From Haloactinospora alba (GTDB lineage: Bacteria; Actinomycetota; Actinomycetes; Streptosporangiales; Streptosporangiaceae), in the NCBI RefSeq assembly GCF_006717075.1, contig NZ_VFQC01000001.1, positions 1,221,001 to 1,285,000 of the forward strand: DNA of 64,000 bases, given 5' to 3'. Both the position numbers and the translations under genes were made by a program. Under the pieces are notes generated by a model, which had not been told where the DNA came from, searched no databases, and saw only the letters and a program-made list of their open reading frames with translations. Positions 13,388 through 18,026 of this stretch are shown here, piece after piece (within the stretch, counting starts at the first letter, position 1; each line of letters starts with the position of its first letter).

Positions 13388-13416
13388 TTGGCCTCACAGC
13401 ATGCCGCAGCATAGGT
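13388..13416 (+). promoter_or_regulatory. Candidate promoter of the mccA-like gene
   Basis: TTGGCC (13388–13393) and ATAGGT (13411–13416) are spaced by 17 bases and lie 44 bases upstream of the mccA-like start. The match to the sigma-70 consensus is modest, so this is a suggestion only. Confidence 0.35.
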
Positions 13417-13460
13417 TTGGGCATGTTCCTGTAACTCTCGGGTAGAGAGAGGCGGTAGTT

Positions 13461-13526
13461 ATGCGGCGTATCAAGATGAGCCGGGTTCGGAAGACCAAAG
13501 GCAGCACGACGGTCGTAGCAAACTAA
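13461..13526 (+). CDS. mccA: MccA-like precursor peptide of a microcin C-type antibiotic
   Basis: A 21-codon gene for a very basic peptide that begins MRRIKM and ends TTVVAN. The C-terminal Asn is the residue that MccB enzymes modify (E. coli MccA is MRTGNAN, also ending in Asn). AGAGAGG (13446–13452) lies eight bases before the ATG. It is followed after four bases by a perfect palindromic terminator, as in the E. coli mcc operon where a hairpin after mccA boosts precursor mRNA. Downstream genes encode AspRS, a MccB fusion and a CmoA-like MccS. The longer, Lys/Arg-rich form resembles the class of long MccA peptides that need trimming. An internal ATG at 13476 would give a 16-residue form but has no ribosome site. 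The call rests on context plus the terminal Asn. Confidence 0.8.
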   Translation: MRRIKMSRVRKTKGSTTVVAN

Positions 13527-13530
13527 GCCT

Positions 13531-15497: not shown

Positions 15498-17296
15498 GAC
15501 TTTGGCTGCCCCCGTACCTGTCATTGCGTAAAATCGGAGATGACCTGAGGGTTGGAACCCTGCCACCGCTCGCATGGCATTTTCCGGAGCCCCCGGATTT
15601 CTTATTGGGATTATTGCAGCAGTGTGTGGAACCGATTGAACGCGAAGAGCTGGTACGGAAGGCAGCCGAAGAATCCGGTTGGGAATGGAGCGAGGCCAGG
15701 ACGCTGATTGAGGATCTTGAGGAAGCCCGGGTCCTCCTTCCAGAACTCAGCCGTGATGGAAGATACGATCGTCACGGTCTCTTCTACCAGCTCATGGGAG
15801 CTGGCAGCGACGCACAAGACACCCTCGCATCCGCTACTGTCGGACTCATCGGGATGGGCGGAATAGGAACCCATCTTGCCACGCACCTGGCAGCAGCCGG
15901 TGTGGGAGGACTTGTCATCACGGACGGGGACAGAGTCGAGCATTCTAACCTTACACGACAGACACTTTTCCGTGAGTCCGATATCGGAGAGAGCAAAGTT
16001 GACGTCGCTGCCGATAGATTAAAATGCTTGCGTTCGGACATCGAAATTACGAAAATAAAGAGGAATTTCGATGATGTCAGTTTGGCAGAACAGGTTGCTG
16101 GTAAGTCGGATCTTATCCTTCTGTCAGCCGACAGGCCGAACGATGTGCATTTCTGGGCGCACCAGGCGTGTACAAAGGTGGGTATACCTTTTAGCGCCTC
16201 CGGATACATCGAGGGGCATGGAAGCGTAGGTCCCCTGCTTTACCCTCCGCAGACCCCGTGCTTCTCCTGTATCCGGGAAAACGCTGAGTCGCTGCCAGCA
16301 GAGGAGAACAGTGGTTCCATGCTGGATCGAGGCAACGAACTAAATCCAACATGGCAAGCCCCTAGCTTTGGTCCACTGAATTCTCTTGTTGCTTCTATGC
16401 AAGCGAATGATGCTCTTCGGTGGCTGGTCGGGCTCCCCACGGCAACTTTTGGTCGGAGAATGCTCATTGACTCTCGCTCGTACGAGGTCACATGGGAAGA
16501 CTTCTTGTCCGAACCCTCTTCCTGCAATATTTGCGGAAGTTCAGCGAAGAGTGGCACATGGTCCGGGATAGCTGACCAGTACAGCGAAGAACGCAATGAT
16601 CACTCCTTTAACTCCATCCTGCTCGATGGTTTAGTTCCCGGTCTGTTCGATACCCAGCATCTGGGCCATGTTGCCGATATAGGAGCTGGAACCGGTCGTT
16701 TGACGGAACTACTGGTGGAGAAAAGCACACAGGTAGATGCCTATGAGCCGTCAGAAGAGATGTTCGGTATCCTGCTCGATAGGATGCGTTCCAAAAATAA
16801 TCTGAGGCTGGTGGAGGGAGGTATATCCTCTGTTTCGGGCGTCCGCGACCATTACGATGCGCTCTGCTGCTTAAACGTTCTTGATCACGTCAGCGATCTC
16901 GATCTTAGTATTTCCATTTTGGAGGGTTCCCTTCGCCCGGGTGGAAGGCTTGTGCTCTCTGTTCCCCATCCGGTAAAGGATCGGACGGGATGGAAGAAAA
17001 GCTTCGGCCCCGGTGGTTGGAATTATCATGGATACCTGCTCGATGATTACTTCGAAGAAGGTTTGTGCAAAAAGGATCGGGAAGACAGGAACGGAGACGT
17101 AAGGCTCCGCGGTGTTACGAGCCATCACAGGACGGTATCTCGATACCTGCAGGCGGTGTTAAGATGCGGTATGTCAATAAAGGATGTCATAGAGCCGGAG
17201 CCGGATATTGCACATAGGGAAAACAACCCGGTCTTGTATGATAAATCCAGCAGGGTGCCTTACTTCTTGGTGATTGTCGCGGATTCGGGAAACTAG
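15494..17296 (+). CDS. mccB: MccB-like E1/ThiF nucleotidyltransferase fused to a SAM-dependent transferase
   Basis: This 600-residue protein has two halves. Residues 1–350 resemble MccB: an N-terminal peptide-binding region (about 1–100), the nucleotide loop GLIGMGGIGTH (about 118–128), DGDRVEHSNLTRQTLF (144–159), and a zinc site from CFSC (256–259) and CNIC (344–347). MccB activates the C-terminal Asn of MccA with a nucleoside triphosphate and forms an N–P bond. Residues about 358–600 are a class I SAM-dependent transferase with motif I VADIGAGTGRL (393–403) and LRPGGRLVLSVPHP. A MccB fused to a transferase that attaches a carboxymethyl group from carboxy-SAM to the nucleobase is known from the Bacillus amyloliquefaciens microcin C-like system; the CmoA-like gene next door supports the same chemistry. 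Which nucleotide is used cannot be read from sequence. Confidence 0.85.
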   Translation: MRLWLPPYLSLRKIGDDLRVGTLPPLAWHFPEPPDFLLGLLQQCVEPIEREELVRKAAEESGWEWSEARTLIEDLEEARVLLPELSRDGRYDRHGLFYQLMGAGSDAQDTLASATVGLIGMGGIGTHLATHLAAAGVGGLVITDGDRVEHSNLTRQTLFRESDIGESKVDVAADRLKCLRSDIEITKIKRNFDDVSLAEQVAGKSDLILLSADRPNDVHFWAHQACTKVGIPFSASGYIEGHGSVGPLLYPPQTPCFSCIRENAESLPAEENSGSMLDRGNELNPTWQAPSFGPLNSLVASMQANDALRWLVGLPTATFGRRMLIDSRSYEVTWEDFLSEPSSCNICGSSAKSGTWSGIADQYSEERNDHSFNSILLDGLVPGLFDTQHLGHVADIGAGTGRLTELLVEKSTQVDAYEPSEEMFGILLDRMRSKNNLRLVEGGISSVSGVRDHYDALCCLNVLDHVSDLDLSISILEGSLRPGGRLVLSVPHPVKDRTGWKKSFGPGGWNYHGYLLDDYFEEGLCKKDREDRNGDVRLRGVTSHHRTVSRYLQAVLRCGMSIKDVIEPEPDIAHRENNPVLYDKSSRVPYFLVIVADSGN

Positions 17297-17297
17297 T

Positions 17298-18026
17298 ATG
17301 CGCGACGAGGTGTTCTCCGGAGTTTCGAATCCCAAGCCTTTTTCTTTTGATGAGCATATCGTCGATTTCTTCGATGATATGCTGGGTCGGAGTATCCCCT
17401 ATTACTCTGAGGTCCAGCGTATGGCTGTTGAGTTGACGCAACATATTCTCAACGGGAACGGGGGGACAGTATACGACATCGGATGTTCCACTGGAAATAC
17501 GCTTCTAAGACTGAAGGGGAGCATTCCTTCTGAGCAGAATGTCAACTTAGTAGGAATAGATCCCTCACGGGCGATGTGCGAAAAATTTGCAAAAAAGTTG
17601 TCCGATGCGGGAAGCCCCGGTCGTATAAGAATTCTTGAGTGCGGCGCTGAGGATATTGATAGCTTTCCGGATGCGCGTGTTGTCTTGATGCTCTTTACGC
17701 TGCAGTTCCTGGATTTACCGCACCGGGACTGTGTCCTGCAAAAGGTGTACAACAGCCTTGCGGACGAGGGAGGCGTGGTCATTGGAGAGAAGATACATGC
17801 CGATGATCCCGAAATGGATGCTATCTATACTGGGTTTTACCAGGCGTACAAGATGAGGAACGGGTACTCCCAAGAAGAGATAGAGAACAAGAAGAAGGCG
17901 CTGGAGAACGTTCTGGCCCCTCGTCGCAACTCGGAGAACAGGAGGTCCCTGGAATCCGTCGGTTTCCGTAGGGTGGACGAGGTTTTCAGGTGGTACAATT
18001 TTTCGGTTTTCCTTGCGCTCAAATAA
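17298..18026 (+). CDS. mccS: CmoA-like carboxy-SAM synthase (MccS-like)
   Basis: This 242-residue protein aligns by eye with E. coli CmoA along its whole length: MRDEVFSG / FSFDEHIVDFFDDMLGRSIPYYSEVQRM at the N-terminus, VYDIGCSTGN (SAM motif I), LMLFTLQFLDLPHRDCVLQKVY, GYSQEEIENKKKALENVL and a C-terminal WYNFSVFLALK. CmoA makes carboxy-S-adenosylmethionine from SAM and prephenate. In proteobacteria it serves tRNA wobble-uridine modification with CmoB; no CmoB is seen here, and the neighbour is a MccB–transferase fusion, so the role is more likely to feed carboxy-SAM to that domain. It starts two bases after the mccB stop. The gene is strikingly AT-rich (25 G/C in the 60 bases at 17581–17640), which suggests transfer. 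Confidence 0.88.
   Translation: MRDEVFSGVSNPKPFSFDEHIVDFFDDMLGRSIPYYSEVQRMAVELTQHILNGNGGTVYDIGCSTGNTLLRLKGSIPSEQNVNLVGIDPSRAMCEKFAKKLSDAGSPGRIRILECGAEDIDSFPDARVVLMLFTLQFLDLPHRDCVLQKVYNSLADEGGVVIGEKIHADDPEMDAIYTGFYQAYKMRNGYSQEEIENKKKALENVLAPRRNSENRRSLESVGFRRVDEVFRWYNFSVFLALK

Follow-up and report, generated by a model that had tools for sequence, protein, structure and literature searches.

The aspS gene for aspartyl-tRNA synthetase (AspRS), the enzyme that processed microcin C blocks, stands inside a microcin C-like gene cluster in the actinobacterium Haloactinospora alba, within the 64,000-nucleotide stretch of contig NZ_VFQC01000001.1 analysed here (the window, whose first letter is position 1). 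On balance, I favour the view that the cluster makes a 21-residue peptide with an Asn-linked carboxymethylated cytidylate, and that its built-in AspRS, the sole one of the genome, is likely an insensitive stand-in for the toxin target that protects the producer. Two Nocardiopsis strains, JB363 (genome G166, locus L127) and ATB16-24 (G163, L128), carry a cluster of the same make-up (mcc). JB363 clearly documents, through a sequence scar, how one essential tRNA synthetase was exchanged in place for another inside a single genus: an AspRS of the window-like kind (type A) took the place of one of a kind about 41-46% identical to that of the window (type B).

The cluster and its predicted product

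A sequence-only reading of this DNA had proposed five elements, namely mccA, a hairpin, aspS, mccB and mccS, and all five were found at or near the places it had assigned to them. Together with their neighbours, they are the following (SAM, S-adenosylmethionine).

12604..13371, + strand: MBL-fold hydrolase gene, outside the cluster, left boundary of the aspS slot
13461..13526, + strand: mccA, 21-residue precursor peptide MRRIKMSRVRKTKGSTTVVAN; counterpart conserved at the same place in L127 and L128
about 13529..13576, + strand: long hairpin following mccA, possible terminator or attenuator (-44.9 kcal/mol for 13527-13585)
13722..15497, + strand: aspS, type-A AspRS, predicted insensitive replacement target (TIGR00459, single copy, synteny)
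15494..17296, + strand: mccB, ThiF-type nucleotidyltransferase (residues 99-337) and SAM-dependent transferase (about residues 392-492 and on)
17298..18026 (ATG start), + strand: mccS, CmoA-type carboxy-SAM synthase (TIGR00740)
18040..18219, - strand: DUF397 gene, cassette member (PF04149; 64% in L127 and L128)
18216..19046, - strand: XRE/DUF5753 gene, presumed regulator, cassette member (62-63% in L127 and L128)
19170..19469, + strand: gene of 99 amino acids, cassette member, without Pfam match (43-49%, in L127 and L128 only)
19781..22018, + strand: PAS/SpoIIE-type gene (named by eye, not by family scan), outside the cluster, right boundary of the aspS slot

The three genes at 18040-19469 are found with the cluster at all three mcc loci and are missing from other slots; hence the whole unit is mccA-hairpin-aspS(A)-mccB-mccS-DUF397/XRE-small gene, larger than first described. 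The XRE regulator lies in the slot only at the two mcc loci among 45 fetched, being absent from the other 43 at E 1e-20 (a 33% match in L164 is outside the slot), and DUF397 has no match under E 1 in those same 43.

MccA is 21 residues long and ends in Asn. JB363 and ATB16-24 carry an identical 21-mer, MRRISMTPVRKVKGSTTVVAN, at the same place, 17 of its 21 residues matching the window peptide. As a chance control, Asn-ending open reading frames (ORFs) of 6-46 codons were sought between the MBL gene and aspS, and were met in 3 of the 45 fetched slot loci (the region scanned took in part of aspS in the two loci with a split gene): two are the mccB-bearing loci, and the third is an unrelated ORF in the type-B genome G132. 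Conservation of MccA beside mccB in all three loci makes a chance origin of this ORF unlikely. Hairpins of differing sequence occupy the matching place in JB363 and ATB16-24 (-37.2 and -37.3 kcal/mol). The strong fold claimed behind mccA is there, whereas its description as a terminator is plausible and not canonical, for no T run lies behind the hairpin. A known RNA element upstream of aspS was also considered and rejected; an Rfam scan of 13000-19500 returned three sub-threshold matches to microRNA families on the hairpin, which are taken as chance.

Family scans find ThiF and methyltransferase domains in MccB, and at full length the protein can be aligned with the two-domain enzymes of Nocardia vaccinii (36% identity over 99%) and Bacillus amyloliquefaciens (35% over 98%), the latter representing the branch that the sequence-only reading had named. 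A sequence search of the PDB ranked E. coli MccB chains best (6.9e-38, against 5.2e-24 for MoeB), and a full-length structural model (mean pLDDT, the predicted local distance difference test score, of 88) gave 24 top Foldseek matches that are all MccB structures (best 1.7e-27), above PaaA, ThiF and MoeB. In a 22-protein tree of the ThiF domain, the window protein clusters with actinobacterial two-domain MccBs; the MccBs of B. amyloliquefaciens, Nocardia vaccinii and E. coli are on its side of the root, while E. coli MoeB and ThiF stand apart. Some branches of that tree are long, that of E. coli MccB among them, so the tree is used for the split from MoeB/ThiF only. An identity as MoeB or ThiF is thus rejected by structure-database matches, tree and model alike, and the claim of an MccB-type enzyme holds: its N-terminal half goes with the MccBs, and the model fits the E. 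coli MccB crystal structures best.

MccS scores 201.2 bits against TIGR00740, the CmoA family (cut-off 193.3), and shares 32% identity with E. coli CmoA across 242 alignment columns. With a two-domain MccB and a partner that scores as a carboxy-SAM synthase, the carboxymethyl-cytidine branch suggested before is the best assignment. According to the available text of PMC9239234, MccB and MccS are the published enzyme pair of that branch, and Nocardia vaccinii MccB converts its 21-residue MccA to cytidylated and carboxymethyl-cytidylated products in vitro. By analogy, a peptide-carboxymethyl-cytidylate is the predicted product class here too, and cytidylation, rather than adenylation, is predicted from these relatives. 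The assignment to microcin C-like clusters as such, by MccA and MccB, is made with high confidence from sequence.

It might be supposed that the MccB-like and CmoA-like enzymes act on the MccA peptide or on another substrate, AspRS not being the target at all. The cluster has no known product and no exporter gene, and its MccB is just 35-36% identical to characterised enzymes, all of which would suit such a view; an Asn-ending MccA conserved in three loci and found only beside mccB, and the published role of the MccB and MccS pair (PMC9239234, in the text available), make it very unlikely. Even less probable is that the cluster is a silent or decaying relic, retained through its physical tie to the essential aspS. 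The GC content at third codon positions (GC3) of mccB and mccS is low, 0.55-0.60, and neither an exporter nor a known immunity gene is present in the cluster; against this, all reading frames are open at full length, conservation extends to the regulator genes, and 17 of the 21 MccA residues are kept between genera. The GC3 of the window aspS, 0.68, falls between that of mccB/mccS and that of the flanks (0.81-0.89; the aspS of G006 has 0.90).

Full-length MccBs of this kind are rare. Among 341 genomes of the family, 7 have a match at E<=1e-40, the window's included, and the match is full-length only in the window genome, JB363 and ATB16-24; the remaining four are of another kind, spanning only about residues 13-354 with 34-36% identity. 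The window was the sole match among 394 genomes of the class at 1e-80. Close plasmid-borne relatives were sought and dismissed, given that 477 plasmid records match MccB and none over 80% of its length. A contig scan with the MccB sequence alone found no relative, and a scan with an MccB alignment returned distant loci only among its best 80 (top 38%). A separate, distant MccB-like protein occurs in Nocardiopsis halotolerans DSM 44410 (L046, NZ_ANAX01000368.1), where the match, 35% over residues 50-353, does not include the methyltransferase half.

A single AspRS in a slot of three states

The window AspRS scores 602.8 bits against TIGR00459 (cut-off 373.85) and has the OB-fold, the class II core and the GAD domain; by homology it starts at 13722 and not at 13647, relatives opening with MHRYRTHTCG or close to it. 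The window genome, 98.65% complete on 4 contigs, has one place over the aspS cut-off. Two further matches to the profile, of 89 and 41 bits, are adjacent, lie under the cut-off and probably belong to a single further class II synthetase. The idea of a spare copy beside a housekeeping one is therefore rejected, there being no second match over the family cut-off. The built-in aspS, flagged earlier as worthy of attention, thus proves to be the genome's sole AspRS gene, and of the type that replaced another in relatives. In many actinobacteria hisS and aspS adjoin; in this genome hisS is found at C1:2643595-2644857, outside the window and far from aspS.

In a search of 59 other genomes of relatives, 3 have an AspRS 65-81% identical to that of the window, and the remaining full-length matches are 41-46% identical. 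At E<=1e-170, type A is present in 30 of 341 family genomes, the window's included. Forty-seven genomes were checked singly: in 45 there is one AspRS match, and in the other two, G138 and G158, the gene is split into two abutting pieces. Forty of the 47 belong to genus g76, taken as Nocardiopsis, and comprise 24 with type A and 16 with type B. The three mcc genomes that were read have type A and lack type B. The split genes (G138:C1:2025466-2027228, L240; G158:C33:49689-51442, L239) are the sole aspS of their genomes, each in two overlapping frames.

The gene order DUF349-MBL-aspS-PAS/SpoIIE-rarA is kept in 44 of the 45 fetched loci (40 from g76 and 5 others), the PAS-rarA pair being inverted in G007. 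The slot has three states, namely type B, type A by itself, and mccA-aspS(A)-mccB-mccS with the three small regulator-like genes; two of the 44 have mccB, mccS and the regulator between aspS and PAS, and the window is the third such locus. By type, the 45 slots divide into 28 with A and 17 with B, with mccB in 2 of the former and in none of the latter. Within genus code g30, the slot is occupied by type A in G324 (L165) and by type B in G029 (L166), neither genome having mcc.

Relative to E. coli and to 12 type-B rows, all 81 type-A rows of the alignment (some duplicates included) share S193A, L196Q, Q226S, T230Y, H449N, T452S and S487A, as well as one extra Gly after P227 and Pro at 533 (E. 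coli numbering). These differences probably lie in or near the aspartyl-adenylate pocket. They could permit insensitivity, which is predicted from sequence, and do not prove it, because the same differences occur in bacteria without mcc; for that matter, active-site changes peculiar to the mcc-linked AspRS were considered and rejected, as all 81 rows carry them. In the open-licence literature, no paper on His449 of AspRS was found, and PMC7136475, in the portion available, describes structure data for microcin C bound to AspRS as lacking at its date.

The association of aspS with mccB appears to be long-standing. Comparing 28 of the 92 MccB matches with the 118 AspRS matches listed, four AspRS and four MccB proteins fall on contigs of the same size (24654, 10144, 33120 and 3888 bases), and these are taken as linked genes. 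For the resulting seven pairs, three from loci that were read and four so taken, the trees of AspRS and of the MccB N-terminal half are compatible: in both, the window joins the two Nocardiopsis and contig 3888 joins 24654, with one MccB fork at 89/88 and one AspRS fork unresolved. A larger AspRS tree, a quick one carrying a long-branch warning, splits the linked AspRSs and the Nocardiopsidaceae type A from the sampled type A of Streptomyces and Amycolatopsis (support 89). A metagenome protein of 341 amino acids, P0063, begins as a type-A AspRS and continues with pieces of MccB; be it an assembly chimera or a fused remnant, it is a further hint of aspS/mccB adjacency.

Exchange of type B for type A

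The direction of change is best seen in JB363. Compared with the type-B genome G162, its DUF349, MBL, PAS and rarA proteins are 90-95% identical and its AspRS 43%, while compared with ATB16-24 its AspRS is 92% and its MccB 74% identical, the same four flanks being at 80-92%. At the DNA level, the type-B genomes G147 and G146, which are 91-92% identical to JB363, diverge from it 3-4 bases past the MBL stop codon and rejoin it inside the end of the type-B aspS. The incoming segment of 8.8 kb occupies the place of about 2.0 kb, and behind it the last 22 codons and the stop of the type-B aspS are retained, with one 3-base insertion. Because this scar remains behind the incoming segment, it can be stated with high confidence that type B was replaced in JB363 by type A plus mcc, the cluster arriving with its own AspRS and deleting the resident gene. 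Towards the scar, the segment also contains a DDE transposase gene and an RRXRR-domain gene (L127:4224-5042 and 5198-6040, - strand), which may have contributed to forming the junction. No scar is seen in ATB16-24, whose right junction falls beyond the type-B aspS.

In a tree of four flanking proteins (46 rows), JB363 belongs to a group of five genomes whose other 4 members have type B (support 94), and ATB16-24 to a group of ten whose other 9 have type B (support 97). The minimum number of changes between A and B on this tree is six. The chance of both mcc strains being the only type-A members among the 15 genomes of these two clades is 1 in 105, a figure computed post hoc that is not a test. 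The tree of type-B AspRS keeps most of the flank groups, save that G140, G165 and G135 join the group of G162 (support 84).

Proposed self-immunity by target replacement

The proposed mechanism would run as follows. The N-terminal half of MccB would nucleotidylate (formyl-)MccA at its terminal Asn, forming an N-P bond, MccS would make carboxy-SAM and the C-terminal half of MccB would carboxymethylate the cytosine. An exporter encoded outside the cluster would secrete the product; competitors would take it up, and the isoasparaginyl-nucleotide left after trimming by their peptidases would block their AspRS. With the cluster's own, insensitive AspRS as its sole one, the producer would be spared. 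Such target-based self-immunity, with type-A insensitivity predicted from sequence, is proposed with moderate confidence.

Other routes to immunity have been described. Those named for microcin C, as far as the texts available go, are acetylation of the MccE2/RimL type, MccF, MccH and MccG (PMC9239234, PMC7157772, PMC12250964, PMC7916415, PMC7136475), other peptidases being mentioned too (PMC12250964). Family scans of the cluster genes found none of the MccE2, MccF, MccG or MccH kinds. In MccH, the third His of the HIT motif is replaced by Lys (HxHxK), and a homologue from N. kunsanensis was tested (PMC7157772, available part). The two HIT proteins of the window genome have HxHxH, not HxHxK; in the wider survey, in which 30 of 36 HIT matches were readable, an HxHxK protein was seen in G144 (taken as N. 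kunsanensis; L200, G144:C3:164653-164856), a type-A genome without mcc. The single S66 protein of the window genome is nearer to LdcA (31%) than to MccF (23%), and its one S51 match, at window positions 2078-2233, is below the cut-off.

Several observations weigh against target replacement. No transporter or exporter gene was found among the genes of 13388-19469, the remaining genome not having been searched for one. Published clusters usually have an exporter gene next to mccA and mccB, and usually also an immunity gene of a known kind, neither being a defining feature. MccS has Lys at the position of Arg199 of E. coli CmoA, a residue with a role in that enzyme, which calls for caution. No scar was detected in the window, and the genomes closest to it in the tree carry type A. 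In favour of target replacement, on the other hand, neither an MccH signature nor an MccF-like protein nor an S51 protein over the cut-off was found in the window genome, where GNAT acetyltransferases (MccE2/RimL type) were not searched. With aspS placed between mccA and mccB, any transfer of the complete cluster has to include the synthetase, and for the same reason linkage alone remains a rival, in that it would by itself carry aspS along. In this rival account aspS would be an ordinary, sensitive synthetase moving through its position, immunity would come from an unlinked acetyltransferase or hydrolase, and the aspS promoter would serve mccB and mccS. It would agree with the ATGA overlap of the aspS stop and the mccB start, with the 26 of 28 type-A slots that have no mcc, and with type-A active-site residues that are common to all 81 rows, Streptomyces and Amycolatopsis included, and are not mcc-specific. 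Differences between A and B also arise without mcc on the flank tree, as in G145 (A) versus G140, G165 and G135 (B), and G324 (A) versus G029 (B), and ATB16-24 has an HxHxK HIT protein outside its cluster (L196, G163:C4:290773-291027). Yet the link of aspS with mccB is an old one, seen again on contigs from beyond the family, both Nocardiopsis mcc strains acquired type A within type-B clades, and the searches made in the window genome yielded no MccF-, MccG- or MccH-like protein; passive carriage of aspS is consequently regarded as unlikely, and replacement of the target by an insensitive AspRS as the preferred reading. A broader scenario, for which I would claim somewhat less, is that actinobacterial mcc clusters spread by swapping aspS for a toxin-insensitive AspRS that serves as immunity determinant, the many mcc-less type-A Nocardiopsis keeping it as an inherited resistance to compounds of the microcin C kind.

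With regard to known clusters, that of Nocardia vaccinii shares with the window a 21-residue, Asn-ending MccA, an MccB of two halves (nucleotidyl- and carboxymethyltransferase) and MccS; it has in addition mccC, mccD, mccE1 and the peptidase MccG for immunity, none of which is in the window, whereas no aspS is named for it in the available text (PMC9239234). The B. amyloliquefaciens cluster likewise has the two-domain MccB and MccS; unlike the window, it has a 19-residue MccA and four key genes, with no aspS named in the portion at hand (PMC12250964). The closest analogue is AgnB2, the resistant form of the target synthetase made by the producer of agrocin 84, likewise a nucleotide antibiotic of the Trojan horse type (PMC5059758, as available). 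As would be expected of self-resistance of this sort, the window has the gene of the likely target enzyme inside the cluster, and that enzyme has a diverged active site. The differences are that agrocin 84 concerns leucyl-tRNA synthetase, other chemistry and proven resistance (PMC5059758, same text), whereas here the enzyme is AspRS, resistance is predicted and the synthetase is the only one of its kind in the genome. MccE2, MccF, MccG and MccH similarly protect the producer from processed microcin C, but they modify or destroy the toxin (PMC9239234, PMC7157772, in the parts available), while here the target would be replaced. The microcin C literature cited here does not name target replacement among the routes to self-immunity, so far as the texts available extend, and no report of an AspRS gene in an mcc cluster was recognised in the open-licence literature, which leaves out many papers.

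To sum up, what is new is the presence of the target enzyme within the cluster, together with its displacement of the resident gene in JB363. If true, a cluster that supplies the target in a version of its own and thereby deletes a resident essential gene would be a solution unlike toxin modification or destruction, and the AspRS type would be a marker, readable from genomes, of sensitivity to the microcin C-like class.

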